Assembly (NCBI RefSeq): GCF_024323335.1
Contig: NC_066581.1
Location: forward strand, 432,530,136 to 432,594,135
Source: Lathyrus oleraceus
Lineage: Eukaryota; Streptophyta; Magnoliopsida; Fabales; Fabaceae
Length of the DNA: 64,000 nucleotides
Reading direction: 5' to 3'
Each line of letters opens with the position of its first letter. The stretch's first letter is position 1. Below, one piece after another: positions 40,129-63,304 of the stretch. A program made the position numbers and the translations under genes. A model generated the notes under the pieces. The model was not told the DNA's origin. It saw nothing but the letters and a program-made list of their open reading frames with translations, and ran no database searches.

Positions 40129-40918
40129 ATGTACAACAAGATCGAACAGTGGTCCAATTTGAATAAGGTAGCGCGCACAAACACGGGACTTCATGAACAG
40201 TACCGCGCGAATGGATCTAAATCAGGTTTTTTTGAATTTTCAAACTGTTCTTGCACACGTTCATACATTCATCACCACATTCATCACTCAAAAACTTTTT
40301 GTCACCAAATTGCACAAACCATACATCAATGGAAAGGTCTTTCAATGTACATTCACAATCTCAAATTATTTAAGCCTAATTCTCACTAAATAAAAAAAAA
40401 TCGAATCAAAACATATTTGTGCACAAAACTTCAAATCATCATAACTTCCTCGTTTCTCAACCAAATTTAGTGGTTCAAAGTGAAGAATTCTCTACATCTA
40501 AAGATCTATCTAAAGCATCAAACAAATTCAAGAATTATTGAGGTCGAAAAAATCACCTTCAATGATGTGCAGTTGTGAATTCGTGCGTTTTCCACCTTGT
40601 AATGCCAAAACAGATCTTCTATGATGCTTGAGTTGATGAATGAAGCAAGTCTTGGATGTTAATTGTGCACGATCTTGACGAAATCTTGAATCGCCATTGT
40701 TGCACCTCACTTTAACAGTCCAAAATTTGGCTTGGAAATGATGAATCCTTGCTTCAATTAGCTTCAATAATGCATGTGGATGATGAAACAATGAAGATCT
40801 AAGCAAGGTTTTTGAAGAAATTGCAAAAAACGTAAAGATGAAAAGTTGAGAGAATTGGAGATTTTGGATCTAGATCTGAAATTCTGTTATGGTTAAGATG
40901 AAAACAGTTACAATTATC

Positions 40919-40926
40919 CTTTTATA
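40919..40926 (-). promoter_or_regulatory. possible TATA box of LTR D
   Basis: TATAAAAG on the minus strand, about 1.27 kb into the LTR. Position is comparable to A and B, but the word is short. Confidence 0.35.
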
Positions 40927-42192
40927 TGTGATGTTAATCATGATTCTAATCCTAATTGGTGCTAATGAAATGGATTAGTGAAAAATGCATTTTCATGCTA
41001 AATGGCAATTTGGTCATTCACCCTCACTCATGTAAAACCAATGTAACAGTGGAATTTTCTGGTTTGAGCAAGTTACAAATGGCATATGTGAGCTAGTGCA
41101 AAAGGAATGGAGTGAAAATAATGAATATTTCTCAAAATGCACTTTTCCCTCAACTTTTTAAATTAAGTCCACTTGAAAAATGCACTTTTTATGTGATGAT
41201 TTTTCATGAAATGTAATGATGGATTATGATAGCTCATGTCAAATGAATTTTGCTCAAAGAAACTTCACTCAATTTGGCCTTGTGAATCAAAAGTTATGCC
41301 ACTTTGAAATTCCACTTTTTTGGACAATGATCAATCCATATCTTGCCAACCACAAATGAGAAATTCATGTTCTTGGACTTTTTGGAAAGGTGAGAGAAAG
41401 ATCTACAACTTTCATATTGAACAAAGTTTCATTTGAAGCATTTTTGGACACGTAATTTTGAGGAGAAAAACTTTCCATTTTTGGCAATTTTCAATTACAA
41501 GTCCTTTCTATTTTTGGAAAGTTTTCACCTGACTTTATTTTCTTCATTCTTGATCTTTGAAATGTCAAATGAAACTTGTTTAGACATTAATGAAGTGTCT
41601 CTAACCCTCTCCCACCTCCAAATCCATCAATTCAGGCACAGTTGACCGCAGTTGACTTTTTTTACTGATAGATGAATCTGGCTATGCACTGATCAAGTTG
41701 AGCTTCAAACTCCTGATGAAATGGCTCAATGATGAAACCCTAGCTTCCATAAGCTCATTAAAACCATATGATGATCCCTCATATCCATTGAAAACCTCAT
41801 CTCCTTGCTAAGCCCTGATTGGCCCAATACAGATGATTCAACTGATTAGGGTTGACCAGAGGTCAAAACCCTAATCTCAAGGTATCTGATCAATCTCTTG
41901 GATGATATCAAGACCATGATGATGATGATGTATCATTTCCACCAAGATGAAGCTCAACCCCCTTGCGAATCAAGAAACCCTAATTTGTATCACAAACCCT
42001 CAGATGGCTAGTGATCAATTCAATGAAGCCTTCAGCTTGAATCTCAACCTCTTATCTTCTGACCAAGACCTAGGAGGAAGACTTGCTTAAGTAGCCACAT
42101 GATATGCAATATGCAATGCCTAATGACCTACAAATGAAATGCAATATGTTAAGCTAGTCCCAAGAGAGGAGGGCAAATTTTGAGGTGTTACA

Positions 42193-45100
42193 CTTCATGC
42201 CATATACAAGAGAGAAAGGGGTTTCCCCTGTTGAAGTGCGGACAGATGTACGATAGCCATGCAAAGCAAATGGCAGCATCTCATGCCAATCCTGGTACGT
42301 GACAACCATCTTCTGGATAATCTTCTTGATGTTCTTGTTAGCAGCTTCATCGGTCCCATTCATCTTAGATCTATAGGGAGAAGAATTATGATGCGCAATC
42401 TTGAACTCGCTACACAACTCTTTCATCATCTTGTTGTTCAAGTTAGATCCACTATCAGTAATGATCTTGTCTGGCACACAATATCGCCATATAAATTGAT
42501 TCTTGATAATCTTCACGACCACCTGCCTGGTTACATTTGCATACGATGCCGCTTCAACCCACTTGGTGAAATAATCAATAGCTACGAGAATAAAACGATG
42601 TCCGTTCGACGCCTTAGGTTCAATCATGCCAATCATGTCAATTCCCCACATGGCGAAAGGCCATGGTGAGGAAATAACATTCAGAAGTGTCGGGGGAATA
42701 TGAATCTTGTCCGCATAAATCTGACACTTGTGGTATTTCTTCACATATTTGCAGCAGTCAGACTCCATTGTCAACCAATAATCGCTTGCTCTCAACATCT
42801 TTTTAGCCATATCATGTCCATTAGAATGAGTACCAAATGAACCCTCATGGACTTCAGTCATCAACAGGTCTGCTTCGTGTCTATCCACGCATCCGAGCAG
42901 AACCATGTCAAAATTCCTCTTGTAAAGCACATCACCATTAAGGTAGAAACTTCCAGATAATCTCCTCAAAGTTTTCTTATCTTTGACAGATGCCCCGGGC
43001 GGGTAAGTCTGACTTTGGAGGAAGCACTTGATATCATGATACCATGGCTTATCATCTTTTACTTCCTCCATTGCAAATACGTGAGCTGGTCTATCCAAGC
43101 GCATCACAGTAATATTGGGGACTTCATTCCAATACTTCACTACAATCATCGAAGCAAGCGTAGCGAGAGCATTCCGTCATCCGATTCTCATCTCGAGGAA
43201 TATGATGGAAGTCAACCTTAGTAAAGAAAGTTGAAATCCTCCTCGCATAATCTCTCTATGGGATGAGGCTAGGCTGATTCGTTTCCCATTCACCTTTAAT
43301 CTGATTAACAACAAGGGCTGAATCACCATAAACATCAATATGTTTGATCCTAAGATCAATACACTCTTCCAAACCAATAATACAAGCCTCATACTCTGCC
43401 ATATTATTCATGCATTTGAAAGTTAGCTTGGCTGTAAAAGGAAAATGTGTGCCTTGAGGAGTAATAATCACTGCCCCAATTCCATTTCCATACTAATTGA
43501 CAATGCCATCGAACACCATACTCCATCGGGAACCAGGCTCTGGTCCTTCATCGAGTGTAGGCTCATCACAATCTTTCATCTTCAAATACAGAATCTCTTC
43601 ATCCGAGAAGTCGTACTGCACAGACTGATAATCTTCAATTGGTTGATGTGCCAAATGGTCAGCCAAGATACTACCTTTAATAGCTTTTTGAGCTCGATAC
43701 TCAATATCATACTCAGATAACAGCATCTGCCAACAGGCAACTCTCCCAATTAAAGCAGGCTTCTCAAAGATATACTTGATCGGATCCATTTTGGATATCA
43801 ACCAAGTTGTATGATTAAACATATATTAGCGTAAGCGCTTAGCAGCCCAATCCAAAGCACAACATGTCTTCTCAAGCATTGAGTATCGAGACTCACAATC
43901 AGTAAATTTTTTACTCAAGTAGTATATCGGATACTCTTTCTTTCCTGATTCATCTTGCTGACCAAGGACACAACCCATGGAATCATCAAGCACAGTCAAG
44001 TACATAATCAACGGTCTCCCTTCAACAGGTGGGGACATAATCGGAGGCTCGGACAGATACTCTTTGATACTGTCAAAGGCCTTTTGGCAATCCTCGGTCC
44101 AATCATGACGCTGATCTTTTCGGAGGAGCTTGAATATAGGCGCACATGTGGCAGTCAAGTGGGATATAAACCTCGAAATGTAATTCAAGCGACCAAGAAA
44201 GCCTCAGACTTGCTTCTCAGTTTTGGGCGCAGACATCTCTTGTATTGCTTTGACCTTGGCAGGATCAACTTCAATACCTCTCTCGCTGACAATAAAGCCC
44301 AATAAATTGCCGGAACAGGCTCCAAATGTACACTTGTTCGGATTCAGGCGAAGTTTGTACTTCCTCAAACGCTGGAAAAGCTTCAACAAGTGTTCTACAT
44401 GTTCAACTTCCATTTTCGACTTTGCAATCATATCGTCAACATACACCTCGATTTCTTTGTGCATCATATCATGAAACAAGGTGGTCATAGCACGTTGATA
44501 CGTGGTTCCGGCGTTCTTCAAACCGAAGGGCATCACTCGATAACAGAATGTTCCCCAAGGTATCATGAATGTTGTCTTCTCCATATCCTCGGGTGCCATT
44601 TTAATCTGATTATAACCGGAAAATCTGTCCATAAAGGAAAAGACATTGAATTTAGCCGTATTGTCTACCAACATATCAATGTGTGGTAGAGGAAAATTAT
44701 CTTTTGGACTAGCTTTATTCAAGTCACGGTAATTCACACACATTCGGACTTTTCCATATTTCTTAGGCACGGGCACAATATTGGCCACCCATTGAGGATA
44801 TGTAGAAGTCACCAGAAACCTCGCATTAATTTGCTTCTGAACTTCTTCTTTAATCTTCACTGCCATATCAGGATGAGTTCTTCTAAGCTTTTGCTTCACA
44901 GGCACACACTTAGGCTTCAATGGCAAGAAATATTGCACGATATCAATATCTAGGCCAGGCATGTCTTCATATGACCAGGCAAAGACGTCGACATATTCTC
45001 GTAGCAACTCAATCAACCCCTTCTTAACAGACTCTTCAAGGAGTCCCCCAATCTTTATTTCACGAATGCAATCTTCTGACCCCAAGTTGACTGTTTCCAG

Positions 45101-45240
45101 ATTCTCAAGATGTGGCTGAATGATCTTCTCCTCGTGCTCAAGCAGACGGGTAATCTCATCAGGAATCTCTTCAACATCATCTTCTTCTGCCTCAAATACA
45201 GGGAACTCAAAGATAGGAGATGGTGTTGGATCATTATGTC
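42193..45240 (-). pseudogene. B pol: RT, RNase H, archaic RNase H, integrase (5' of insertion D)
   Basis: From about 45240 (FEFPVFEAEEDDVEE) the frame runs through RT (FSGYNQIKMAPEDMEKT, YVDDMIAK near 44430), RT-linked RNase H (KKFTDCESRYSM near 43915), archaic RNase H (FDGIVN near 43500, NNMAEYEACI near 43400), H2C2 finger and integrase (WGIDMIGMIEP near 42640; ITDSGSN near 42455, where ITDNGSN is usual; DEAANKN near 42345). Stops: TGA 44204-44206, TAA 43826-43828, and after FDGIVN near 43493-43495. A single-base frameshift lies near 43170. It ends at D's insertion after SLVYGMK. Clearly inactive, but less decayed than A. Confidence 0.93.
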
Positions 45241-45257
45241 CAATGGGTTTGATTAAC

Positions 45258-45532
45258 CCGCATAATGATTTTGAGTATAAAAGAGATTTCAGAATTCAAA
45301 TAAAGCAAATCATTATGCAGATGAAAAGATGGATTTTATTCTCTTTTTATGGTTTTATAGTGATCACCAATTTCATGCAAAAAGTAAAAAAGGAAAAATA
45401 ATTCTGGAAAAACAAACATTTAACATGTGATTATTGAATGAATATCATTGTATTAATCAAATTATGCCAACAATGTCTTCACTTCTCCTTTTGGCATGGG
45501 AGAAGGGTTTTTGAACAAAATGAACACATTAC
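45258..45532 (-). other. B putative intron between protease and RT
   Basis: The protease-tail coding block (PGGICNNWV) ends near a GTAATG donor at 45532. The RT frame starts near 45255. The expected acceptor reads GCGG where C has GCAG, so the AG may be mutated. An intron here is a known Ogre trait. About 275 bp; boundaries are inferred by analogy with C. Confidence 0.5.
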
Positions 45533-45750
45533 ATTGACTTGTGGATAACCGTTGGAACATCAACAGCGACCCAATTATTGCAGATTCCCCCGGGTATGAC
45601 AAAGTTGCCAAGGTCTTCCTCTTCATCATCTTCAACAATGGCAGCGGCTTCTTGATCTTCAACGGTGTGGATGAAACCTCCACTCTAGAACAACCCACAA
45701 TCATTGGAAACACCAGAAGAATACCCTATGCCAGCTCGGGACTTGTTATC

Positions 45751-48700
45751 TTACAACTTGATCATTTTCCCCAAACCATTTGTTGTACCATGCTCAATGG
45801 CCAACTTCGAATCATTATAGGAGACAAATGAAGAAAGTCCTTTCCTTGAAGGCTCAGCAATAGATAAGGCTTGGAACGGAGTCCCAACCTCATCCTCAGC
45901 ATCTATATAGGAGAAGGAAGATAAATGACTGACCAAGAGAGCCTTCTCTCCCCCTATCACCACTAACTTCTTGTTCTTCATGAACTTCAACTTTTGGTGT
46001 AGGGTGCATGTCATGGCGCCTGCCTCGTGAATCCATGGTCTGCCAAGCAAACAACTATAAGACGGATGTATGTCCATGACCTGGAAAGTGATCTGGAAAT
46101 CACTAGGTCCAATCTTGATCGGGAGTTCTAATTCGCCGATCATAGTTTTACGTGATCCATCAAACGCCTTCACAACCACTCCACTCTGCCTCATGGGAGG
46201 CCCTTGATACGAAAGTTTAGCAAGAGTGGACTTTGGCAACACATTAAGGGATGACCTTGTGTCCACCAACACATTGAATAAGGCATCATCTTTACAGTTC
46301 ATAGATATGTGTAAAGCCAAATTGTGGTCTTTTCCCTCCTCGGGAAGATCAACATCACGAAAGCTCAAGTTGTTGCAAGCGGTTATATTTGCAACAATGC
46401 TATCAAACTGCTCGATTGTGACATTGTGGTCTACGTATGCCACGTCCAACACCCTCTGCAAAGCTTCACGGTGTGGCTCGGAATTCATCAACAAAGATAA
46501 GACAAATATCTTTGATGGAGTTTGTAGCCGCTGATCAACAACATTATATTCAGTCCTTTTGATGAGCCTTAGCATCTCATCACCATCCTCTTTCAAAATG
46601 TCAGATTGGCCAACCAGGATAGGAGTATTATTATTCTGAACAGCAGCAGGGTCAACACCCTTAACAAAAGGAACAAAATTATTTGGAGAAGAAGTCCCCA
46701 CGGGACTGGAAGGATTAACAACAGCTCTCTTCACGATGTCCTCATGGGATTTCGGCTTAGCCGAGAAAACACGACCACTACGGGTCACTCCACTGACATC
46801 TGAAATGCTCACCACAGAAGTTGAGGGAAAAGGCACCTCCTTTCTATCCTCTAGCATGACAACGTTATATCGGTAGGGAACATCTTTGTCTGTTACATAA
46901 GGGACAAGGCCTGCTGGCTTAATCACCAAAGCTGGAGATACTTTCTTCTTGCTGCCATCGTACTTGATAACAATAGGCTCAGGCATTTTAAGCACAGGGG
47001 TGATAACATCAACTTCGTCCTCATTACGATTCTGAAGTATCTTAATCATTTCTTGGATGTCTCTTCTCACCTGACGGCATCCTCTCTCATTGATAGTGCA
47101 CACCTGGCACCTATCATGGTTATGCTCGTAGTGGCTGTATTCACACAACAGCTTATGCATCTCAACCAAGGACTGCCTTATGTCATTCACATATAGGACT
47201 TTGTATTTTCCAGGGCATCCCTGGACCATGTTAACAACTGTTTTCCCATGCTCGGGCAATGGGTTCTTCTTTACATTTGGACCTACGTCCTCAAAAAACA
47301 GTATCCCACTTCTCACAAGGTCTTGCACCTTGGTCTTCAATGGATAATAGTTCTCCACGTCATGTCCGGGAGCCCCGGAATGATACACACAATGAAGCTC
47401 GGGCTTATACCACCACTGAGGATTGGTTGGCACAACGGGAGGATCTCGTGGAGTTATCAGCTTCCTATCGATCAAGGAAGGATAAAGCTCAGCATATGTC
47501 ATCGGAATCGGGTCAAAAGTTACCCTTTTCCTCTCGTAGTTGCTGGTGTTGGTGTTATTATTGTTACGAGGTTGGTAGGCCTGTTGTTGTTGACGATGTT
47601 GTTGTTGTTGTTGTTGATGATGAACTTCTCTGAAAGTAGGTGCTATATGAGCCACTTGGTGTTGGTTGACGGTTGGACGCACATCCTTCCTCCTCACAGA
47701 GGGCCTTCTTTTAACATGAGAGGACACATCATGGGTTTCTCCCTCCTTCTTCCTAGTAAAGCCTCCATACTTCTTTGTTGAGGAACTGTCATCTCGAGAT
47801 AAACGTCCTTCGCGGACCCCTTCCTCTAGTCTCATCCCCATATTCACCATTTCGGTGAAGTCTGAGGGAGTACTAGCGATCATTCTTTCGTAATAGAAAG
47901 AGCTCAAAGTCTTCAGTAAGATCTTTGTCATCTCCTTCTCCTCCAGGGGTGGCACTATCTGAGCTGCCAATTCTCGCCATCTCTGGGTGTATTCCTTGAA
48001 GGTCTCCTTATCCTTCTAGGACATCGCCCTCAATTGGTCCCTGTCTGGAGCCATATCCACATTATATTTGTACTGTTTCACAGAGGCCTCGCCTAGATCG
48101 TTGAAAGTGCAGATGCTTGCACTCTCCAGCCCCATATACCACCAGAGCGTAGCACCTGTCAGGCTATCTTGGAAATAGTGAATTAGTAGTTGGTTGTTGT
48201 CAGTCTGTGCTGACATCTTGTGAGCGTACATAACAAGATAGCTGAGCGGGCATGTATTTCCCTTATACTTCTCAAAGTTAGGCACTTTGATTTTAATAGG
48301 GATCTTCACGTTGGGCACCAGGCACAACTCAGCAGCACTTTTCCCGAAGAGGCCATTTCCCCTCAAAGTCTTCAGTTCCTTGCGCAGCTCAAGGAATTGA
48401 TCTTTCATTTCATCCATTTTTTCATAAACATCCGGGCCCTTAGATGGCTCAAAATGATAAATGGTATCTTCAACACGGGGAAGAGTGTGCACAATAAGAG
48501 GTGGCACAAACAGGACCAGGCTAGATGCCGGTATAGAAGCGAGAGTAGGAGCGAAACCCTCTGGAATGAAATTGGGAGGAATTCCCCAAGGGAACCCAGC
48601 TATCATAGTCGGGGCGAAGTGGGTTATTGCAGCAGGTACCGTTGAAGTAGCTATCTCAGATATGACCGTCCTCGCGGGAGGAGTTGCAGGAGTTGACGAA

Positions 48701-48795
48701 GATTGGCTTTGTGCAGCCATGACTAACTCCATAATGGCAGTCAGTCTAGCGATCTCTTCCTTCAAGTCCCTGTTCTCTTGCTCGAGATGTTCCAT
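45751..48795 (-). pseudogene. B gag-protease
   Basis: Start chosen at Met 48795 (MEHLEQENRDLKEE), where a coiled coil begins. The gag capsid-like region includes FEKYKGNTCPLSYLVMYAHK, LWWYMGLE and KQYKYNVDMAPDR. An in-frame TAG at 48016-48018 splits it. The zinc knuckle near 47340-47395 is CVYHSGAPGHDVENYY, where the final Cys seen in relatives is Tyr. A CAG/CAA-rich (Gln) tract lies at about 47580-47620. The protease active site near 46260 reads VDTRSS instead of VDTGSS, which should abolish activity. The downstream GRPWIHEAGA block is conserved. The frame stops at 45751, and protease-tail coding text continues in another frame towards the intron, so a frameshift is likely. Confidence 0.9.
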
Positions 48796-49122
48796 TATCT
48801 TTGGATGATTTGCTTTAGTATTATACCGGTGCGTCAGCTTGTCTTCAAAATAAATGAAGAGCAAAGAGTTAGACCACTGATCAAGAGCTTGGAACAAAAC
48901 CTACTTATGCATATGATGCATGCAATGCTTGTGCATATGATTTGTTTTTTAATTAGAGGAACTTTTTAGAGATCTATTTGAAAATATATGGAATACTCAT
49001 AGTAATAATATTTGGGAACTTTTTTACACCAAAGAAGCAATACAGTTTTGGAGCCCTAGAAACAATCATCCAAAGCCCTAGAAACAATCAGCTTGCCAAG
49101 GGAATGAACATCCTATGGGGCC

Positions 49123-50573
49123 CTAGAAACAATCATCCAAAGCCTTCGAGATCGGAAGATAGGTAGCACGAAGCCTCTTCACCTCTCTCTCATAAGCTGC
49201 TTCCATATTGGCCTTCTCCTTGGCAAGCTGATCATACTTCCTCTTCCAGAACCTAGAGGAATGAGGAAGAAGAGAAGTAACTACATCATCAGGCTCATCA
49301 ATAACCTGATGCTCTAGAAATTCTATCAATGCATCCTTATCTTTGAGCTGCTGAAGAAGTTCCTTACGCTCACAAACCATTGCACGTGATCGGTTTTCAT
49401 CTCTCAACTCCTCTACTCCTTGGTTAGGGAGGGTTGAAGGCCCAACCATAACCATAGGGGTAGGTCTCGGATATTCGTATGGCATGCGGTACTCAAGAGC
49501 TCTCTTCCTCACCCGAGCGGTGTAGGGTTCCAAAGCAATGCAGTTCTTCGGACCAAGCTCATTCCTCCCTTTCCTATGAACTTTGCGCCAAGCGCGGACC
49601 ATCCTATCCTTCAAGTTCTGGGGACCTTTACCCTCTTGAAAGAACAAGCCTTCCAACAAAATGTTGTTAGGTTTATCCTTTAAGGGGAACCCAAGCTGAC
49701 GATGAGCCAAACAAGGGTTGTAGTTAATTCCATCACACGTACCAAGAAGAGGCACATTAGAGAACTCACCACAAGAATCAATAATCTGAACTCCATCATA
49801 AACACAATTGTACCAAGAGATATCATCATTAGTGAGAGACATGAGTCTCGCAGACCACCGTAGACATCCCTTTTTCTCCTTGAAGGCAAGCGTCTGAGGC
49901 AAGTGCGAAATAAATCACTTGTACAATAGAGGCAAACAACACACAATGGAACCACCCCCCTTTGCATTCCTCATATGCAAAGAGAAATAAGTGTCACCCA
50001 ACAGAGTAGGAACGGGATTAAGAGAAGAGAAAATCCTAATAGCGTTCACATCCACGAAATTGTCGATGTTGGGAAATAACACTAGCCCATAGATGGGGAG
50101 TACAAACAAGGCCTCAAAAGCTTCCTTACTCATGGCCTTCCAAACAAAGTAGCTTTGGAAATCAGAAAATCAGATGGGAGACCTTGAATTCCACCTTTGT
50201 TAGTCATGTTAGCAACAATGTCAGATACATCCACATGAAGCATATTAGCGATGTCTTGAGAAGACAGGATCTTCTCCAAGCCACTGAATAGAAACCGATC
50301 AAGAATAGGTATACCCACATGATAGGCATACTCCTCAAGTGTAGGCAAAAGCTGGAAATCCGGAAAAGTGAAGCATCGATACAAAGGATCGTAGAACTGC
50401 ACCAATACACTCATCAGACCTTCATCCACTTTGGTATAAAGAATAGACAGAAGTTTCCCATGACGAGTTTTGAACTCCAAGGGCTCTAATACATAAGATG
50501 TCAAACTCCTTAACTCTTTCAAGTCGGGTTGTCGGAAACTGTACTTCTTCGTATTCCTTCTTTGCTTATCCAT
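49123..50573 (-). pseudogene. B ORF1: extra ORF upstream of gag (Ogre ORF1, plant-mobile-domain-like)
   Basis: Starts MDKQRRNTKKYSFRQPDLKE at 50573. The N-terminal 150 residues include FYDPLYRCFTFPDFQLLPTL and EEYAYHVGIPI, resembling the plant mobile domain family (aminotransferase-like). The frame shifts near 50140 and continues with IYGLVLFPNIDNFVDVNAIR, GDTYFSLHMRN and GGGSIVCCLPLLYK, then a TGA at 49915-49917, then WSARLMSLTNDDISWY, DSCGEF and LGFPLKDKP. The C-terminus is helical and charged (ELLQQLKDKDALIEFLEHQV; YDQLAKEKANMEAAYERE), probably coiled coil. Stop at 49123. An extra ORF of unknown function before gag is a known Ogre trait. The similarity call is by eye. Confidence 0.8.
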
Positions 50574-51169
50574 GTCTGAAAATTTGCAAATACACTTCTT
50601 AAGTTCCTTGAAAACTTTTATTGTTGATGATATGGATGCATATGAATGCATGAATGCATGGATGCAACAGTCATACTCAAGGATCAAGCAAGTCACACCA
50701 TACAAAGGTCATGGGATGGCTCAAGTCATCGTCAATATCAATCATCCATTTTGGTGGATTATGGTTTACACCTTATCAACACCCAAGTTCCATTGATATT
50801 GAGAATGTAAGAGAACGGATCAACCACGAATCAAGGGTTTGTTGTAAGTCACGAGCATGGAGTCTCGATTAAGAACCACCCAATGGGAGTGTACTATGGT
50901 TAAACCTGACAATCATGTTCTAAAAAGGGTCCTCATAGTCATCATCTCATCTTTCGGATATTATCGGATAAAACGACCACTCGTTCTCCAAAACTATTCT
51001 CAAGAAGGACTCTTATGAGTGTAGTATCGCGTAACAATCGTATCAAGTCTTACACTTGAACGACCTTCGCACTACGTCCTAGAATAGGCTAAGATGGGCT
51101 AGGTATCTAAGGTCCTTGGCTTCTAAGGTTTATATTGGAAAGAGTAATGCCTAACCACGACTACTCGTG
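50574..51169 (-). other. B 5' leader, cut by insertion of C
   Basis: No gene. Repeated ATGAATGCATG words lie at 50635-50660. The last five bases TCGTG (51165-51169) should be C's TSD; the other copy, B's primer site and B's 5' LTR would lie beyond the window. Confidence 0.65.
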
Positions 51170-51471
51170 TGTCGCATCGCGCGAAAAACCGGCGGGAAAA
51201 GAAAGAACAACAGAGCCGCCACCGTGCGTTATTTATCCCAAAAGAGGGAAAGGAAACGCTCAGAGTAAACCTGGAAAGAACATGGTCTCGCGACCAAAGA
51301 GAATGGGTTCGGGAGTCGGTTATGCGAAGGGAAGGTATTAGCACCCCTACGCATCCGTCGTACTCGACGGGATCCACGCACAATAGAAAGGAAATTGGTT
51401 GCTAAACACTGCTCAAATACTCACACACACTGGCTGAAAGATACGCAAGAGACTGACTGAAACTGACTCGG

Positions 51472-51972
51472 CAGGATATCGTATCCTGGGCCTACTTAGT
51501 CTATCAGGCATAGACATCAGAGTCGAAGTAGTTCGGACTGGGGAAACGACACATGCTCGCTAGGATATCGCATCCTATGCATACGTATCTTCTCGGACGA
51601 GAGAAGAATCAGAGCATTCGTAGCTCGGCTGACACGCACACAAACAAAACAAGACACAGGCAAACGTGGAGCCCGACTGCCAATCACTGGACTTATATCA
51701 GCATCCGAACCTAAACACACGCACACTGGAACCCAAATGCCACTCGATGGACTTACATCGGCTTCCAAGCACACAACAACACTACAGGTTGATAGGGAGT
51801 CGGGGACTCGAGCCTATAACTGTCAAACACACACTCAAACAAGACAGACAGCAAATGCTAAGGAGTCAGGGACTCGAGCCTAGCAAAGGTCAGACAACAC
51901 ACACAAAAAGAAAAAAGGGCGCCCGGAGAGATCAGCTCAATCTCCTGCCTACATACTTCATCTGGTGTGAAG
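51472..51972 (-). repeat. multi-hairpin modules near the 3' end of LTR C
   Basis: Plus-strand positions: CAGGAT/ATCCTG around ATCGT (51472-51488); GTCTAT/ATAGAC (51499-51515); TAGGAT/ATCCTA around ATCGC (51561-51577); CTTCTC/GAGAAG (51589-51606); GAGAT/ATCTC (51928-51944); CTTCA/TGAAG (51956-51972). Arm sequences differ from those at matching places in D and E while pairing is kept. Confidence 0.75.
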
Positions 51973-52142
51973 ATCAGGGCGATGTAGTTCCCCTATGCAG
52001 GGATAAGGATCTAGCCTAACCAGATAACAGAGGGAGACACAACTAGGGAGACTACGACTCGAGCCTAGATGTTATCATGCAGGATCATCCCTAAGTTAAG
52101 GTTTCTAGCTAAATGGTACGAGGGCCAACCTATCCTAAGTAT

Positions 52143-52305
52143 GGCTCACACAGGGAGCAAGCCACACACACTTAACTTGCACAGGAAGCAAGCCAAGCAA
52201 AACCCTACTTGCACAGGAAGCAAGTCTAAACTAATCCTAACTTGCACAAGAAGCAAGTCAAACAATCCTATCTTGCACAGGAAGCAAGTCAAACAATCCT
52301 ACAAG
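52143..52305 (-). repeat. hairpin tandem repeat in LTR C
   Basis: Four to five units of about 33 bp with ACTTGC/GCAAGT arms around ACAGGAA. The first unit uses GGCT/AGCC arms around a similar loop. Confidence 0.75.
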
Positions 52306-54260
52306 CACAGATAGCACACACTATACACAAGCAAGAGGCTCAAACAAGGGTTAGGTTTTAGTCAAGGGGTCATATCAACCTCAACAAACAAACCTCTGGA
52401 ATGGGGTGAGTGTTGCTCTTAACCTTGCCATTGAGGGGCTAAGGTGAAGCAGATGAAAGGATGAAGTGAGGATGAGACCTCACAGCTCTTGTCCCTGGCC
52501 TGGGAGAGCTCAAGACAAGAATGTGTGGGTTCAGAAAGTGGGAACCCTTCTACACATTTAAAACTGACTCAACTGTGCAATTGCACAAGATCTTGGGTTT
52601 GTATCTGCAATGCATCAACACAGTGGTGTGAGCAAAGCAGATGACACACTGAATAGTGGGGGATAGATTGCATATCCCTACCTTCCACCAATTGCCTCTT
52701 CACTTAGGAGGTCTTTGACTCTATGCAAGGACAAAAGTAAACAGTCACAAACATTGCCTCTTAAGGAGGACTTCAGACAGTTGCCTGGCCAAGTAACAGG
52801 CCAGGTCTTCCAGACTACATGAAGACAAAGAGACATACCTCAATGCAAATTGCTTATACAAGCAAAGCAAAGCAAAAGTTCACAAGGAACTAAAAGCAAC
52901 TAAAGTACCTGAAATCAGTCAAGCACAGTTAGTATACAAGTCAGAGTTAAATCAAAATGAAACAGACATCAACCAGTCAACACAAGCAAGTGAATGTGCA
53001 AGGCACAAGGCTTAAGGCATGTGAGCCAAGCCACCTACAAAATAAACAAGTTAGACAATGATATTCAAGCAAGCTCAATCAAATTGTAATGATCTCTTTG
53101 AAGCATTTGTAGCTTAACCTGAAAACATAAGCTCAAAAGTGAGTACCAGGACCACTAGGGCAAGCCTAGGGTCAAAAATAAATGAGAAAGTCAAAACAGC
53201 AAGGGATATCCAATCAAAGTCAAGTTTAAACATTCAAGAAACAAACTCAATTGGGTTCACATTCATATCCATCACTATCATCATTTCATGAACCATTTAG
53301 GTCAAAGTATGGCAAACAGAAGCTCATAGAAGTCAACAGCAAGACTTGCATCAAAACCAATCTCAAACATTTCCAAAAATCATTAAATAAATCATGATCA
53401 ATCATAACCCACAGCATGGTAAGCATGTCAAATTTCATCTCATTTGGACAAGTGGAAGGCGGTCAATGAAAATCTTAAAGTCAAAGCCATTTTGAACATG
53501 CTCAAAGAAGTCAACTAAACATGCATCAACTTAGAAAATTCATAAATCAGTGATAGCATATGATAAATGAATGGGACTAAAACCATGGCAAAGATGAGGA
53601 TGTCTAGTTATCTCATGTAAAATTTCATGTCCATCCAATAAAGTATGAGAATTCCACAAATGAAATGGGAACATGTGTCACACAAAGTCAATATTTGACC
53701 AAGCAGGGGAGAAAATCTCAAACAATTAGGAAAATGCCTCAAATAATTCCAGGAAAATTCACATGTAAACTAGACATACAAGAGTAGGTTCATGCAAAAA
53801 ATCAGATCAATTGGAGGTCAAGAAGTATGGTAATGAAAATCATGAAGTTGGGCATCAATGGTGTGACACAAATTGTCACACCCTAATTCAAAAATTCATA
53901 ACTCACAAACCACAAATGATAAATTCACAAACTTTACACCAAAATCACCACGAGTGTGTCTAGTTTAAGCACAAAAAATTTGGGAGCCATTGGATACATT
54001 CTCATCATTTCACAAATGTTTTGGCAAAGTGTACAAGAATTTGGTCACATGTCACAAACCCTAGCACCATTTAAAATTCGACCATGAAAAAATTCTGGAA
54101 AATATATGACAAAAAACTAGAGATCAAGATGGACGCAACACAAAAAATCCCATTAAATTTGGATTAAAAATGAACAAGTTATGATTTTTGTAAGTTTGAG
54201 TGATTAAATGAAATAAAAATTGAAAATTAAATGGATTAATGGAATAAATAAAGAAACAAT

Positions 54261-54272
54261 GGGGGGGGGGGG
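54261..54272. repeat. 12-base G run
   Basis: Homopolymer in LTR C, just before GGTCAACGCCCCGG. Length may be affected by sequencing. Confidence 0.8.
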
Positions 54273-54345
54273 TCAACGCCCCGGTCAACGCGCCCAGTAG
54301 CAGCGCTCCTTTTTAAATATATATTTTAGAAGGCATTTAATAATT

Positions 54346-54420
54346 GAATTGGCATCGCGCCCCAGTGGTAAAACACTTGGTATTTGAAGCAAAGGTCTGG
54401 GGTTCGAATCCCCCTCGCCC
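54346..54420 (+). ncRNA. tRNA-like segment inside LTR C, antisense to the LTR
   Basis: The plus strand reads GCCCCAGTGGTAAAACAC (A-box/D-arm-like), a partly pairing anticodon-like arm with TTTGAA in the loop, and GGGGTTCGAATCCCC (T-arm with B box, 54400-54414). The acceptor arms do not pair, so a functional tRNA is unlikely. It lies about 2.2 kb into the LTR, close to the position of the one in D, but on the opposite strand relative to the element. Confidence 0.6.
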
Positions 54421-56608
54421 CAGACCTTTTGACATTTATTTAATAGGCTTTGCTACAGTAAAAAAACAGAATAGGCTTTGCTACAGTAAAAAACAGAAAA
54501 TCCAGCATTCATATTGCAGTAGTATTCATATTGCAGAGAAAAAAAAAACTACAGTAGCAGCTTCAACAACTACAAACCCAGGTTGAATTTTTTTTGCTTC
54601 GAAATTAAAAAAATAAAAACAACAATATGTGCATCTAAACATGCTCAAACCTAAACCAAACTCCATATTCACTAAATCAAACTAAACAAAAAGAAATAAG
54701 CAAAAACAAGTTTGGATGCGAAACTTCAACTCAACATAACTTGCTAAATACTAAACCATTTTCAACCATTCAAAGCTCATAATGATCAGGGAAAGGAGAT
54801 CTACAAAGTGTGTATCATGATTTTGGGAAAGGTGAGAGTCGAAATTTTACCGAGTTGGAAGAGCAGTGCTGATTCGGTTGTTATTCGGCCATGTTAACGC
54901 GAAACAGGTGCTTTAAAACCCTCCTAATGATGAATGGTGAAGATGCTTGGTTCAAAACAACTTGCAATGGCTTAAAATTTGGACTGGTTTTTGAAAATGC
55001 ACAAAATGAAGCTTTTTTAGAATGAGATGTTTTTGTGTTTTTTGCTGCAACTAAGGTCTTCTATTGACAGAAAATGATGCTTTGGTCTGCTGTTTGATGT
55101 TGCTTTTGGCAAGGCAAAGCTTGGTCTTTTGGAAGTTTTTTTTTTGACAGGTTTTTGGAAAAAATGCCAAGAAGAATATGAATGAATGAAGTTCTGTTGT
55201 GTATGGTTGCTTCTAGTCTTCACTTGACAGAAAAAAAATGATATAAAATCTTTTTGCTAAGAGATACAAAGCATGGCTCATGGATAGTATGGATAGGTAT
55301 GGTTGCAAATTGTACTTTTTCTCCAAAATCAAGCAAGCAAGCATGGCCTTTGTTTTGCTGGTTTTTTAGGCTGCAAATGAGGCTTCAAATGACAGAAAAT
55401 GATGCATAATGCTGCTGTCCTTTTGAGGTACAAGGCATGGTATGAAGTAGCATGGTTTAGCATGATGAAAGTGTCCTTTTTTTGCAAATTCCAAGCAACC
55501 AAGCAAGATTCACATGTGCTGCATAATTTGACTTTGCAAACACATTTAAAATGATATTTATGAGCTGTCCCAATTGGCCAAATGCTGAAAAAATGTTTGA
55601 ATCAAAAAGTCAACCCTTGGTCAAACTTCCATTTAAATGAAAAAGGTCAAAATATGCTATTTTGATTGGTGAAGTTTTGGGTCATGAAATTTATATTTTT
55701 GGAAAGAGGATGAAAAATGTGGTTTGTAGGAAAAAACCCCACCAAATTTGGCCAAACGGTTTGGGAGATATGGCCCTTTGAAGTTCAAGATTTTCTAAAA
55801 TCGATTCGATCATAACTTGCCAACCGTACATGGGAATTGAGAGTTCTAGGACTTTTTGGAAATGGGAGAACAAGATCTTCAACTTTCATGTTGGGCAAAA
55901 ATTCATTTGAGGCTTGTATCACAATGTAAGTTTGAGGATCAAAACTTTCCATTTTTGGTAAGTTTCAGTTACAGGCCCAGTTTCCGTTTTGGGAAATTCA
56001 TGATCTGGCTTCAAATTCTTCCATGATGGTGTTTGGCATGATATATGATGACTATTTGGACATGAATGAACTCCCACAAACCAATTCCAATCATCAAATC
56101 TCTGACTAAATGGACAGTTGACCAACAGTTGACCATTAGGGTTTTTGTCTGATTATGCATTGACTGATGAATTCCAAACCCTAATTCCTTGAGAATTTGA
56201 CTTCAAATGATGTCCCAAGTTGTATGAACTCTTGATTGTTGACCATGGTGCCCAAATTCCACAAGAATGACCACCAACCATTGCCTTGACTGACAGTTGA
56301 CTTTTCTAGGGTTTTTGACTGTCTGGGCATGAACTGCTGACCTCTGAGCCCTTAACCCTTGACATGAACACTTCAAATAGACCTCCAAACCATATGAACT
56401 TGTTGGACAAACCCCAAGGCCTTGATTCAATGAGAAATTCCTTTGCTTGCTTGGTTGACTGATCAGGAGATTAGTTTGACCTAATTCTTGACTGCTTGCA
56501 CTTGAGGCAACTGAGGAACAATGCAAATGCTATGCAATGGATCATGACATGCTATGACCTAATATGAAAATGTATGTATAATGATAGGTGCAAATTTGAG
56601 GTGCTACA

Positions 56609-56625
56609 GCTGCCCCTATTCAATC
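56609..56625 (-). other. C polypurine tract
   Basis: Minus strand TTGAATAGGGGCAGC directly before the LTR start; same core as A and B. Confidence 0.75.
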
Positions 56626-56784
56626 AGCTGGGAACCCGAATGGATGATAGCGATGGCTGTCAGACTTTCAGGGTAAACAGGGATTGAATACCAAAGAACC
56701 GTAGAATTTGCACAGACTGGATATAATACAAAAGAACCACGTCATTTACCGATGACAAACTGCATGACAGCTTCAGAAAAGCAA

Positions 56785-58110
56785 AACCATTTACCGATGG
56801 TTGAAGAACTGGGAACTTGATATTTACCGATATCAACTTCAGCAAGACCATTTACCGATGGCGGCTTCAAAGAAACTTGACATTTACCGATGTCAACTTA
56901 GCAAGACCATTTACCGATGGCTGCTGCAACTGGGAACTCGATATTTACCGATATCGAAGAAAACGGGGCCATTTACCGATGGCGTCTCCACTTGGGGAGG
57001 AACAAAATCTTTGTGGTGATACCAGACAAGACGTTTACCGACGACTTCTGGGGATTTTGATTTTATTGACCAGACATTTACCGATGACTGGGATGAGACT
57101 TGATGTTTACTGACATCGAAAGATGATGTTTACCGACATCAAAAGAAATGACCAGACATTTACCGATGACTGGGAATGAGAAATTTATTGGTGAGAGACA
57201 AACAAATATTCGTAACTGGAAACCAGATAGGACATTTACAGATGACTCTACCGGGGATTTCTAGCTGGAGATTTATCAGACATTTACCGATGACTGAGGA
57301 AAAAGACTTGATGTTTACCGACATCGAAAGATGATGTTTACCGACATCAAAAAATGACCAGACATTTACCGATGACTGGGGAAAAACTCGATGTTTACAG
57401 ACACCGAAACAATGGTGTTTACCGACACCAACAATAATAACCAGACATTTACTGATGACTGGAGAGAAACTCGATGTTTACAGACACCGAAACAATGGTG
57501 TTTACCGACACCAACAATAATAACCAGACATTTACTGATGACTGGAGAGAATACCGATGTTTACAGACACCGAAATAATGGTGTTTACCGACACCAAAAA
57601 TGATGACCAGACATTTACTGATGACTGGAGAGAATACCGATGTTTACAGACACCGAAATAATGGTGTTTACCGACACCAAAAATGATGACCAGACATTTA
57701 CTGATGACTGGAGAAAAACTCGATGTTTACAGACACCGAAACAATGGTGTTTACCGACACCAACAATAATAACCAGACATTTACTGATGACTGGAGAGAA
57801 TACCGATGTTTACAGACACCGAAATAATGGTGTTTACCGACACCAAAAATGATGACCAGACATTTACTGATGACTGGAGAGAATACCGATGTTTACAGAC
57901 ACCGAAATAATGGTGTTTACCGACACCAAAAATGATGACCAGACATTTACTGATGACTGGAGAGAATACCGATGTTTACAGACACCGAAATAATGGTGTT
58001 TACCGACACCAAAAATGATGACCAGACATTTACTGATGACTGGAGAGAATACCGATGTTTACAGACACCGAAATAATGGTGTTTACCGACACCAAAAATG
58101 AATAAGCACA
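56785..58110 (-). repeat. C: array of covarying mini-hairpins with TTACCG loop
   Basis: Dozens of short inverted repeats around TTACCG (variants TTACTG, TTACAG); plus-strand text. TTGATAT/ATATCAA (56817-56836), TTGACAT/ATGTCAA (56877-56896), TCGATAT/ATATCGA (about 56937-56956), AACCAT/ATGGTT (56785-56802), GCCAT/ATGGC (near 56970), GATGT/ACATC (near 57125), GGTGT/ACACC (many from 57415). From about 57390 it becomes a regular tandem array of about 83-bp units, each with three such words, about nine copies. The sense strand is minus (loop CGGTAA). Confidence 0.85.
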
Positions 58111-59344
58111 CGCGGGTGCTGGCGTGACACTTACTGGTATCACAAGAACGACATCTGAGATATGTCAAGGCAAGGTTGACCACTTGCTGGGGGTCTTACT
58201 GAGGAGAAACAAACTTTCTGTCACCATCGGGTGAGGAAATAAACCTCTGTGGGGAATAAACAATTCTGAATGCTGTCAAGAGCAACTGTAGCAGTCTTGC
58301 TGTGCTGATGTTGAATGAAATGATCCGCCTCTGTCGGGGATACGGTCTGGTGAAGTTAACACATGAATGCATATGTTTGAATTTTTCTATGGCGTAATGC
58401 TCCATATTGAATGGGAATGCTACGCAATTTTTGAGGATGCAATGATTACTACATGCAAAATGCAAATGAACCCTGGCTAGGGAGCCGAAATGATCAGATA
58501 CTCTGACTCTGTGGGGAGACTCCTCTTGGGGAAATATTCTGCGGGGAACTCTGCTTGAGGAATGGTAAAGCGACTTCACACTCATGTTGGAGAATATCAC
58601 TGCTGCTGGGAAAAGGTAAACTCCGCTGGGGATATCCTTCAGTCCACAGATAGGATAAATGCTGGAGATAAAATTCAATGAACCTGCCTCGCTCGGGGAG
58701 GAAATCGGCAAATACAGGCCTGCTGGGGATAGGCAATCCTCAGATCTGTTGGGGAATAGAAGGCACTATCCACAGACGTCTCTGCAGGGGAACATAGCTC
58801 TGGTAGCTTCCAAACTTGCTTGGGGAAAATATCTGCTGAGGAAACGTCCTCACAGATGCCAACCTGAAAAACAGCACCACAAAATGCCCCCAGGGGATAC
58901 ATGGACAAGATACGCTCAAGTGTCCTCAACATTCAAAATGATTTTCAAATGTTTCATCTTTCTGCAAATTGTTGTGTAGCCTTCATGTTTTTTTTTTTTT
59001 TATGCAATGCTTATCAAAAATTCGGACATTTTGCAAACAAAACAGTAAAAATAAAAACAAGAGAGCTATTTATCTGAATAACGATTTTTATTGATTGAAA
59101 ATGTGCCTGAAGAGGCAAATACATTAGGAAGCAATTCCTAGAAGGAGGTAATTGCGTACAAAAGGAAAAATCTATCCTAATGGCAATGTGAACACGGCAT
59201 CCACTATTTTCCAATTCTGTTATAACTCACAGACCATCAGTTTTCCTCCCAACTCCTTGCTTTCTGAGAAGAATGACTGGACGGATCACATCTTTCGAGA
59301 TGGCAGACGATAAAGCTCGATGAAGTACAGATAACTCAGACTGT
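58111..59344 (-). other. C 3' noncoding region without genes
   Basis: Recurrent CTG-TGGGGA words (TCCCCA on the sense strand), as in A near 6680-6900. A T-run lies near 58989-59000. No credible coding region. Confidence 0.65.
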
Positions 59345-59574
59345 AGTCTTCGCTTTAATCCCTAATTTTTGCCTGGATCGCCCTTTCGGGTTTTCAATCC
59401 ACCGGGATACCCATTTTTGCCTAAGCCGCCCTTGCGGGTTTTCGACTTACCGGGTGTACAAATTCTTTTCATTTTATCCCTAATTTTTTCCCGAACCTTT
59501 TTTCTGTTTTTTGGTTCGTCGGGATGCCCATTTTTTGCCTGGACTCTTTTATTCTTTTTGTCCAGCGGGTCAAT
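59345..59574 (-). repeat. C: stem-loop units just after pol, GNRA tetraloops
   Basis: Plus-strand positions: GGAT/ATCC with inner CCC-TTTC-GGG (59375-59400; sense tetraloop GAAA); AAGCC/GACTT with inner CCC-TTGC-GGG (59423-59448; sense tetraloop GCAA). Two further units have long A-rich loops: CGAACC/GGTTCG (near 59492-59518) and TGGAC/GTCCA (near 59540-59565). Each is followed on the sense strand by GGCAAAAA. Confidence 0.72.
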
Positions 59575-62500
59575 TTATGCGAAGTATTTTTTGACTACAT
59601 CTGAGTTGACAGGAGACGGAAAATCTTCACCATCCATAGTTGTAAGCATCAAGGCTCCACCGGAGAATACCTTCTTCACAACATACGGACCTTCGTAATT
59701 AGGAGTCCACTTGCCCCTGTTATCTGTACCGGGAGGGAGGATCCTCTTCAAAACTAAATCACCGACCTGATAGCTTCGAGGACGCACTTTCTGATCAAAG
59801 GCTCGCTTCATCCTTCTCTGATACAACTGTCCATGGCATACAGCTGCTAACCGTCTTTCTTCGATAAGGCTCAACTCGTTAAACCTTGTTCGAATCCACT
59901 CAGCTTCGTCCAGCTTGACATCCAATAAAACTCTCAGAGAAGGAATCTCCACTTCAACAGGTAGAACAGCTTCCATACCATACACAAGGGAGTAAGGGGT
60001 TGCCCCGGTCGACGTACGTACTGAGGTACGGTACCCATGCAAAGCGAAAGGCAGCATCTCATGCCAATCCTTGTACGTAACGACCATCTTCTGCACAATC
60101 TTCTTGATATTCTTGTTTGCCGCTTCTACAGCACCATTCATCTTCGGTCTGTAAGGAGAAGAATTGTGATGTTCGATCTTGAAATCTTTACAAAGCTCTT
60201 TCATCATCTTGTTGTTGAGATTCGAACCATTGTCAGTGATGATTCTCTCAGGAACTCCGTAACGACAGATGATTTCTTTCTTGATGAACCGGGTAACCAC
60301 TTGTTTGGTAACATTAGCATAGGAAGCTGCTTCCACCCACTTGGTGAAATAGTCAATCGCAACTAAGATGAAGCGATGTCCATTCGAAGCAGTAGGCTCA
60401 ATCTTCCCAATCATATCAATGCCCCACATGGCAAACGGCCAAGGCGAATTCATGATATTCAGAGGGCTTGGTGGTACGTGCACCTTATCAGCATAGATTT
60501 GACACTTATGGCACTTCCGAGCATACTTGAAACAATCGGATTCCATAGTCATCCAGTAATAACCCGCTCTCAACAATTTCTTAGCCATTGCATGTCCGCC
60601 GGCATGAGTACCGAAGGAACCTTCATGAACTTCCTGCATTAACATGTCTGCCTCGGGTCTGTCCACGCATCTGAGCAAGACCATGTCAAAGTTTCTCTTA
60701 TACAACACATCATCCTGATTCAAATAGAAGCTTCCAGCTAGCCTCCTCAGGGTTTTCTTGTCATTCTTCGACGCACCTTCAGGATATTCCTGAGTCTTGA
60801 GGAAATTCTTGATGTCATAATACCACGGCTTCTCATCAATCACAACAGACTCGGCTGCAAACACATACGCAGGCCTCTCGAGTCGATTCACCGCAACATG
60901 TGGCACATGATTCCACCAATGAACTTTGATCATAGATGACAAAGTAGCCAAGGCATCAGCCATCTGATTCTCGTCCCGGGGGACATGATACAACTTCACT
61001 TTCTTGAAGAACGTCAGTATTCTTCTGGTGTAATCTCTATACGGAATCAAATGCGGCTGATTCGTATTCCAATCTCCATTGACTTGATTGATCACGAGAG
61101 CTGAATCTCCAAATATGTCAAGTGTCTTGATCCTCAGATCAATGGCTTCTTCTATCCCCATGATACAAGCCTCATACTCAGCTTCGTTGTTGGTGACGTC
61201 AAACGTCAATCTGGCAGAAAAAGGTATATGAGCACCTTTGGGATTGATCAATACTGCCCCAACACCGTTACCATTCATATTCACAGCCCCATCAAACATC
61301 AGTGTCCATTTGTCATCAGGATCCGGTCCTTCCTCAACAAGAGGCTCTTCGCAATCTTTCATCTTGAGATACATGATGTCTTCGTCAGGGAATTCAAACA
61401 TCATAGGCTGATAATCTTCAATCGGTTGCTCGGCGAGGTAGTCTGACAGAATACTACCTTTGATGGCCTTCTGTGACGTGTACTGAATGTCATACTCTGT
61501 TAAGATCATCTGCCAACGGGCAACACGTCCGGTGAGAGCTGGTTTCTCAAAGATGTACTTCACTGGATCCATCTTAGAAATCAATAAGGTAGTATGGTTC
61601 AGCATATACTGTCTCAGTCGGCGAGCAGCCCAGGCCAAAGCACAGCAAGTTTTCTCGAGCAGTGAATATCTTGTTTCACAGTCGGTAAACTTTTTGCTAA
61701 GGTAGTATATGGCATGCTCTTTTCGACCAGACTCGTCATGCTGTCCCAATACACACCCCATCGAGTTCTCAGTCACTGAAAGGTACATTATCAGTGGTCT
61801 CCCTGGAACTGGAGGAATCAGGATTGGAGGTTTCTGCAAGTACTCCTTGATTTTGTCAAAAGCTTTCTGACAGTCATCGTTCCACTTGATTGCTTGATTC
61901 TTTCTAAGCAGTTTGAAAATTGGTTCACATGTAGCAGTTAGGTGAGATATGAACCTTGCAATGTAGTTCAACCTCCCTAAAAACCCACGGACTTGCTTCT
62001 CCGTCTTCGGTTCAGGCATCTCTTGAATAGCTTTGACTTTTGCTGGATCAACCTCAATCCCTTTCTCACTGACAATGAAACCTAAGAGCTTCCCTGATCT
62101 CACCCCAAACGTACACTTGTTCGGATTCAACCTCAGCTTGAACTTTCTCAACCGGTCAAACAGCTTCTGCAAATTAACCAGGTGCTCCTCTTCTGTCTGC
62201 GACTTCGCAATCATATCATCTACGTACACTTCAATTTCTTTGTGCATCATGTCATGAAAGAGAGTCGTCATTGCCCTCTGATAGGTAGCACCAGCATTCT
62301 TTAGCCCAAATGGCATCACCTTATAGCAGAACGTGCCCCAAGGTGTAATGAATGTCGTCTTTTCCATGTCCTCTGGCGCCATCTTGATCTGATTATATCC
62401 GGAGAAACCATCCATGAAAGAGAATACCGAGGATTGAGCCGTATTATCAACCAATACATCAATGTGAGGTAATGGGAAATCATCTTTCGGACTCGCTCTA

Positions 62501-63052
62501 TTCAAATCCCGGTAATCGACACACATTCTGACTTTACCATCCTTCTTCGGCACAGGAACGATGTTGGCCACCCACGGTGGATAACTGGTAACAGCCAGAA
62601 AACCCGCATCCCACTGCTTCTGAACCTCTTCCTTGATCTTAGTTGCCATGTCAGGACTCGTTCTACGAAGCTTCTGCTTGACTGAAGGACATCCTTCTCT
62701 AAGAGGTAATCGGTGCATCACAATATCTGTATCCAATCCAGGCATATCTTGATATGACCAGGCAAATATCTCCACATATTCTCTCAGCATCTCAATCAGC
62801 CTCCTCTTGACAGAGTCTTCTAAAGCAGCCCCAATCTTAATTTCCTTTTTGGCGTCCTCAGTACCCAAATTAATAGTTTCCAACTCCTCCTGATGAGGTT
62901 GGATGACCCTTTCCTCTTGCTTCAGTAGTCTGGCCAATTCTGCAGGGAGTTCACAGTCTTCCTCACTCTCCTCTTCAGCTTGGTAGATGGGATTGTCGAA
63001 ATCATACTGAGCCATAACAGGATTGTTCATAGTGAATGCCGTAAGATCGCTT
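59575..63052 (-). CDS. C pol: RT, RNase H, archaic RNase H, integrase (open frame)
   Basis: Over 1150 codons without a stop, ending KKYFA and TAA-type stop at 59575. The exon is taken to start at 63052 after the intron; the first Met is soon after (MNNPVMAQYDFDNP). Order: acidic leader; RT with KVRMCVDYRDLN, FSGYNQIKMAPEDMEKT and catalytic YVDD (62226-62215); RT-linked RNase H (KKFTDCETRYSLLEKT); archaic RNase H (MFDGAVNMNGNGVGAV, NNEAEYEACI, FGDSALVINQ); H2C2 finger (HEGSFGTHAGGHAM, CHKCQIYA); integrase with WGIDMIGKIEP, ITDNGSN (near 60230) and VEAANKN (near 60115); and a C-terminal GKWTPNYEGPYVVK block. It would copy and integrate the element. All catalytic residues I can identify are present. 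The upstream protease frame is interrupted, so overall competence is uncertain. Confidence 0.95.
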
Positions 63053-63304
63053 CTGCATGTTTTATGCTTTGTTTTAGAAAAAGAGTTCGAGAAAGTCACA
63101 AAAAAAAAAAATATTGCCATTTTTTATTGTTTTGAAAAAGTGAAAACAAAAATAGAAAAAACAGGGATCACAAAGTTTGATTGCAAAAAATGTCCTTCAT
63201 TAATGATAATCATTAAAACATGATGAGGCCCTACAAAATGAATCACTACGCCTTGGGCAGAACGTAGGATTTTCATGCAAAATGACAAAACAACAGAAAA
63301 TTAC
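63053..63304 (-). other. C intron between protease and RT
   Basis: Donor GTAATTTTC at 63304, acceptor AACATGCAG ending at 63053, 252 bp, T-rich before the acceptor, with several stops inside. The protease-tail frame before the donor (INNWTAEEVVPVTLLTE) and the RT frame after the acceptor are in phase when the intron is removed. A protease-RT intron is a documented Ogre feature. Confidence 0.75.

Follow-up and report, generated by a model that had tools for sequence, protein, structure and literature searches.

The stretch of DNA analysed here, which we call the window, comprises 64,000 nucleotides of the Lathyrus oleraceus genome and contains an array of small hairpins with a common loop (Table 1). 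An Ogre/Tat retrotransposon carries the array on the minus strand. The pol frame of this element contains the domains RVT_1 (191-351), RT_RNaseH (440-544), RVT_3 (610-727) and rve (896-993), that is, reverse transcriptase, RNase H, a second (archaeal-type) RNase H and integrase in the order known from Ogre/Tat elements of the Ty3-gypsy group. The interval from pol to the polypurine tract (PPT) and 3' LTR holds tandem repeats, by which Ogre/Tat elements are also recognised, and the first-pass annotation was right to assign the array to the 3' noncoding repeats of such an element. The 5' part of the element lies outside the window; a DUF7745 frame at 49126-49914, which we take to be Ogre ORF1, the extra frame 5' of gag, belongs to a neighbouring element. 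Because the array element is on the minus strand, the earlier reader had seen the antisense strand. The loop on the strand of the transcript is C-N-G-U-A-A, and an RNA would show this loop and not UUACCG.

Table 1. Features of the array-bearing element, in positions of the window
Feature	Positions	Strand	Remarks
Ogre/Tat pol ORF	59575..63123	-	1182 codons in its present form; RT, RNase H, second RNase H (RVT_3), integrase
3' noncoding region, pol stop to PPT	56621..59574	-	
Mini-hairpin array	56738..58144	-	45 sites, sense loop CNGUAA
Homogenised part of the array	57277..58101	-	83-nt unit with three hairpins each, 10.0 copies, 94% matches
PPT-proximal part, outside the 83-nt array	56738..57276	-	most distinct stems; orthologous hairpins compared in 41 copies
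Hairpin with T-A/C-G exchange at stem position 3 among orthologues	56877..56896	-	
Polypurine tract	56609..56620	-	AATAGGGGCAGC, read directly; immediately 5' of the 3' LTR
3' LTR	51190..56608	-	start TGTAGCACC at 56608 read directly; far end presumably near 51190, from repeats shared with another LTR-like stretch

Several other elements lie around the array. The 3' LTR is directly followed, in the sense direction, by the ORF1-gag-pol frames of a second Ogre-like element on the minus strand (42154-50708), and this shared-looking LTR (51190-56608) may reflect a recombined tandem or a truncated pair. An LTR-like stretch at about 37294-42195 (minus strand) splits the second element's integrase; this stretch matches parts of 51197-52844 and is probably a solo LTR insertion. 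The tRNA-Lys that ARAGORN calls inside the LTR at 52199-52285 (minus strand) is probably false; a tandem repeat of 31 nt overlaps it. Ty1/copia-type frames with integrase and retroviral SH3 domains, and a zinc knuckle just under the cut-off, are found at 20648-24041 (plus strand). They are flanked by 300-bp direct repeats (17154-17453 and 24056-24355) that are 100% identical and 6902 bp apart; this is probably a recent insertion. An LTR-end-like region at 29104-29799 (plus strand) contains repeated units at 97-208 nt spacing that also hold matched short hairpins, for example TCTCAT-GTTCAG-ATGAGA and GTAGTT-AGCCG-AACTAC.

On the plus strand the loop of the array reads TTAC[C/T/A]G, with 25 TTACCG, 10 TTACTG and 10 TTACAG among the 45 sites, which run from 56746 to 58131. 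The array does lie where it was first placed (56785..58110), but is slightly longer at either end. The perfectly paired part of the stem measures 2 to 7 bp, pairing often resumes past one mismatch, and the spacing from loop to loop is mostly 23-32 nt. In one class of hairpins there is a fixed mismatch, A.A on the plus strand and U.U on the strand of the element; in another, A.C on the plus strand corresponds to G.U. The word TTACCG occurs 34 times on the two strands of the 64-kb window against 9.83 expected, and none of 100 shuffles of the window reached 34; inside the array it occurs 25 times. All seven stem pairs named at the outset (TTGATAT/ATATCAA, TTGACAT/ATGTCAA, TCGATAT/ATATCGA, AACCAT/ATGGTT, GCCAT/ATGGC, GATGT/ACATC and GGTGT/ACACC) are in the sequence. 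Inverted repeats are also far more frequent than in shuffled sequence: 56730-58150 holds 15 perfect hairpins (stem of at least 6, loop of 4-8), all of them with TTACCG as the loop, whereas 200 dinucleotide shuffles gave 0.99 on average and never more than 4. A search of the window against Rfam gave no match, and that of the array gave one weak match only (14.3 bits, E=3, where the gathering score is 41).

The tandem 83-nt unit with its three hairpins takes up over half of the array, and the hairpin copies in that part are therefore plain duplicates. Outside it (56730-57276) we find 5 hairpins with a stem of at least 6 (mean 0.42 and maximum 3 in 500 shuffles) and 10 with a stem of at least 5 (mean 1.8, maximum 8).

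Covariation was analysed in 24 hairpins of the window, 21 of them distinct, with exact repeats of the 83-nt unit included in part only. All seven stem pairs have changed on both sides in this set. There are 40 double-changed cells compared with 15.6 after shuffling (none of 500 shuffles as high), and the covariation score over the seven pairs is 0.652, compared with at most 0.235 for slid partners. In the inner five pairs 95.2% of the cells are paired and the score is 0.670 (slid partners at most 0.236); further pair types are not exceptionally numerous there (169 of 500 shuffles). A fixed loop with compensatory stem changes, as first described, is therefore borne out by shuffled and slid controls, and also by the exchange of T-A and C-G between orthologous hairpins. 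Many stem-loops that share a loop motif on interchangeable stems, as expected of a cluster of packaging signals, are what the array consists of.

For the family with the CNGUAA loop, which we call F1, we compared 41 copies: that of the window, 20 found by a DNA search with the array (40 of 4627 candidates scored, 20 of 39 further main places taken) and 20 taken from 150 listed copies for their identical integrase C-terminus. All 20 copies chosen by integrase carry 25-45 hairpins, the last one about 135 nt before the PPT, and the length of the array varies between copies. The 21 copies chosen by the array, that of the window among them, have it as well. Of the 150 listed copies, 94 (again with that of the window) are 100% identical over the last 241 residues of the integrase, which argues for a young and recently amplified family. 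The 41 copies hold 1489 CNGUAA sites (1047 CGGUAA, 223 CAGUAA, 209 CUGUAA and 10 CCGUAA). When hairpins were sought in these arrays with no loop specified, CNGUAA was found in 504 of 528 with a stem of at least 6, and in 670 of 1315 with a stem of at least 5; the lower share in the second case arises because an arm can also pair with one of a neighbouring hairpin. Among hairpins with a stem of at least 6, the CGGUAA loop alone is carried by 8 different stems. Between perfect stems as many as 5 of 6 pairs differ, and 5 of the 6 loop bases are nearly fixed. The U.U mismatch is present in 41 of 41 copies.

A compensatory change is seen at an orthologous hairpin, with G.U as the sole intermediate observed. 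At this hairpin, the one with the T-A/C-G exchange, position 3 is T-A in 37 copies, C-G in 3, U.G in 1 and C.A in none, and position 5 of a second hairpin is A-U in 35, G-C in 4, G.U in 2 and A.C in none. Over seven orthologous hairpins, positions 1-5 have 88 G.U and 4 C.A cells, and two fixed G.U pairs account for 78 of the 88. Position 6 has 24 A.C cells in one hairpin and 26 U.G in another.

Matched stems by themselves are compatible with a mutational origin without function, in which template switching at imperfect inverted repeats, in the course of reverse transcription, copies one arm to the other and tandem duplication spreads the resulting stems. The arrays are tandem and differ in length between copies, and passages of PMC7004042 cite authors who proposed that such repeats arise by illegitimate recombination or abnormal strand transfer. 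Arm copying does not predict, however, that 5 of 6 loop bases stay nearly fixed beside stems differing at up to 5 of 6 pairs, nor that the U.U mismatch is seen in all 41 copies, nor the excess of G.U pairs to which we turn now. We consider this origin unlikely.

If selection acts on the sense RNA, G.U is expected to be tolerated in the stems, and C.A is not. Among the 7445 cells at positions 1-5 of the 1489 F1 sites, non-Watson-Crick cells are 416 G.U and 35 C.A, a few events being repeated often. Counted as established arm types (assigned loci only, types not independent), the ratio of G.U to C.A is 28:11 (p=0.009), and rarer arm types are also rich in G.U (69:42; Fisher p=0.33 for the comparison of established with rarer types). 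Single defects give 21:8 (p=0.024) against 22:18 for private ones when all 101 regions are pooled, which dilutes the families. Since arm types share ancestry, these p-values are too small. One-step stem changes from Watson-Crick pairs lead to G.U 11 times and to C.A 9 times among private changes, and 7:3 among shared ones. Quartets with a paired intermediate gave 10:5, which is not significant (p=0.30). F2, another loop family, has no G.U excess by cells when taken alone (54 G.U and 61 C.A at positions 1-4 of 12 loci, among them L074, L075 and L087, which are excluded from F2 in the arm-type analysis). For comparison, changes were counted in 19 copies of the flanking LTR, where wobble-forming ones (C>T and A>G) and mismatch-forming ones (G>A and T>C) stand at 39:30 when private and 26:30 when shared, so mutation bias explains little of the G.U excess.

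Folding energy was also considered for the choice of strand and was set aside. It does not favour the sense strand, and antisense folds at least as well. Against their own shuffles, 7 F1 copies have z-scores of -3.4 to -7.3 in antisense and -0.8 to -1.8 in sense, and 4 copies of the family F3 have +1.1 to -0.8 in sense and -0.7 to -2.4 in antisense. Isolated hairpins are stabler in antisense in 69 of 114 cases and in sense in 36 (p=0.035, 101 regions pooled). On balance the folded molecule is just more likely than not to be the sense RNA. The first-pass annotation had left the choice between a folded RNA and a symmetric protein site; the G.U excess in sense favours the RNA, with strand evidence that is moderate and folding energies that are not supportive. 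A symmetric site or cruciform in the DNA, bound by a chromatin protein, would fit dyads that are equal on both DNA strands and antisense folding that is no worse. Half-sites that vary freely in sequence but stay matched would be ill-suited to a DNA-binding dimer, and the sense strand prefers G.U over C.A, which together make this explanation very improbable.

The PPT and LTR-start pattern has 16764 + 16628 matches in the genome (33,392 in total), and from the listed matches we examined 40 3' ends (L071-L110), all on contig C1 and picked by LTR-start type, hence non-randomly. To at least one of six loop groups, F1 to F6, which were defined after the loops had been looked at, 34 of the 40 ends could be assigned, and L088, L103 and L107 to two; no recognised array was found in 6 of these 40 (L071, L074, L075, L092, L096 and L098). 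Loci L001-L008 duplicate the window or the places L009-L015 and are excluded from the counts, and L029 and L050 enter only the integrase comparison. F2 (16 loci) has the loop [A/G]UUCAG and near variants on the stems CGGT/ACCG, TGGC/GCCA, CGAC/GTCG, CGAT/ATCG and CAGT/ACTG. F3 hairpins, TTCATC-YUAAYC-GATGA and CTACC-CAGUAACY-GGTAG, are found in a second window element, on the plus strand with pol ending at 4389, and in its relatives (20 of 150 listed integrase matches taken); 23 of 25 F3 loci have one or more fully paired sites of the YUAAYC hairpin, and 22 of 25 have one or more of the CAGUAACY hairpin. F4 (3 loci) has the loop AGCCMGA on GATTC/GAATC, GATCT/AGATC, GGTCT/AGACC and GATCC/GGATC. 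In F5 (6 loci) the loop CGAUAA stands between the arms TTGGTGT/ACGTCGA, which pair in sense with three G.U, and F6 (3 loci) has the loop CCNGUAA.

The share of fully paired distinct arms exceeds the maximum of 1000 shuffles of the 3' arms, which leave the relatedness of the arms in place, in F1 (0.28 against 0.151), F2 (0.28 against 0.244), F3ii (0.08 against 0.070) and F4 (0.63 against 0.579). The share in F3i was reached by 24 of 1000 arm shuffles. F5 and F6 are not above theirs (1000 arm shuffles), because they have few stem types. Relatives were also sought in viral contigs, and none was confirmed. The likeness of the loops to splice sites or branch points (GUAA, CUAAC, UUCAG) was set aside, these motifs being too short. 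Hairpin arrays with different loops at other Ogre 3' ends are an addition of the present analysis. A similar architecture with differing loops, placed 5' of the PPT, is what might be expected if structure alone mattered and the row of hairpins slowed reverse transcriptase or insulated the PPT. Pure structure does not need the near-invariant loop of the focus family, however, and we regard such a role as distinctly unlikely.

The comparison of loop type with relatedness raises the question whether arrays are exchanged between elements. In the ends L085, L105 and L110, which have F2 arrays, the 130 nt from array to PPT show 93% identity to those of the window copy, as they do in L089 with an F1 array. 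We compared the integrase upstream of eight ends (L111-L118) with that of the focus element. It is 97% identical in L115, an F5 end (420 residues), and 91% in L113, an F2 end (193 residues, with a 24-residue piece at 71%). The F4 ends L114 and L117 have 72% (132 residues) and 82% (83 residues), and the F6 ends have 78% (60) and 57% (53) in L116 and 72% (87) and 81% (63) in L118. L112, upstream of L090, has no integrase match to the focus element. In L111, upstream of L085, the integrase is in two pieces (69% and 36%) and other elements of the window are nearer (81%, 863 bp DNA); this end may be recombined or nested. Since L113 and L115 have other loops, loop type does not track pol or integrase. 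The arrays look swappable between elements, and we infer that they may move as cassettes.

Tandem repeats in the 3'UTR of Tat/Ogre elements are already known, and are described as hypervariable and as a source of satellite DNA (Macas et al. 2009, cited in PMC7004042). As far as the repeats are treated in passages of PMC7004042, they agree with the present array in element type, in their place 3' of gag-pol, and in being arranged in tandem, with variation in both length and sequence; what the present array adds is a fixed loop on covarying stems. The terms 'hairpin', 'palindrom' and 'secondary structure' do not occur in the main text of that paper. In the titles and abstract openings of open-licence papers on Ogre, the Tat lineage and packaging signals of LTR retrotransposons we found no report of these hairpins. 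The multiple packaging signals of ssRNA viruses, as outlined in PMC6281560, are a close parallel, being many stem-loops with a common recognition motif in otherwise variable sequence. They are dispersed over the genome and tied to a coat protein, whereas the Ogre hairpins are clustered in one tract and their binding partner is putative.

Structured cis elements of retroelement RNA that act in export are described for IAP (RTE) and musD (MTE) in passages of PMC12786077, and the Ogre array would be an element of this general kind. The musD MTE is one complex fold with a pseudoknot and kissing loops, whereas the Ogre array consists of dozens of small hairpins with one loop. By analogy, a host RNA-binding factor might dock on the array and control how the intron-bearing genomic RNA is exported or spliced, or how stable it is. 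Ogre introns are described in the same source, the array lies in the 3' noncoding region adjoining the PPT, and C-N-R-U-A-A is common to the loops of F1, F3i, F5 and F6. The loops of F2 and F4 are unlike C-N-R-U-A-A and ill-suited to a single shared host reader. We think a host factor improbable as the main explanation.

The conserved loops, the co-changing stems and the sister arrays of the same design point to a working RNA signal and not to mere repeat noise. We propose that the array acts in cis as an RNA element within the genomic transcript of the retrotransposon, with loops that are presumably read by a protein, a proposal to which we give as much credence as doubt. The transcript would carry, just 5' of the PPT, a row of some 25-50 small hairpins, each displaying the same short loop, and the sequence of the stems would be of little importance provided that the arms pair. 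A near-fixed loop, stems that are free in sequence but paired, hairpins by the dozen and a spacing mostly of 23-32 nt would suit a multivalent docking tract, on which a protein may read the loops cooperatively. Our first choice of reader would be the element's own Gag, with the array as a cluster of packaging or assembly signals, because the tract is in the full-length RNA and the loop differs among families; a host factor controlling export or stability would be the second choice. The integrases of L113 and L115, combined with other loops, do not support a reader that follows pol relatedness. Packaging was one of the candidate roles named at the outset, next to dimerisation, 3' end formation and sRNA production. 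Template switching during reverse transcription might swap the loop as a cassette, and the same process could underlie the hypervariable repeat number.

A more far-reaching possibility is that the Ogre families of one plant genome use exchangeable 'loop codes', each family or subfamily having its own loop that is read by its own Gag or trans factor, on cassettes swapped by recombination. We put this forward tentatively and with more doubt than belief. If the loop code exists, it would decide which RNAs are co-packaged, and it would prevent cross-packaging among tens of thousands of related elements or permit their mutual parasitism. If the hairpin arrays are under selection, they would be a cis-acting signal of a very abundant group of plant retrotransposons (33,392 PPT/LTR junction matches), and this may be a reason why tandem repeats are found at this place in Ogre elements.
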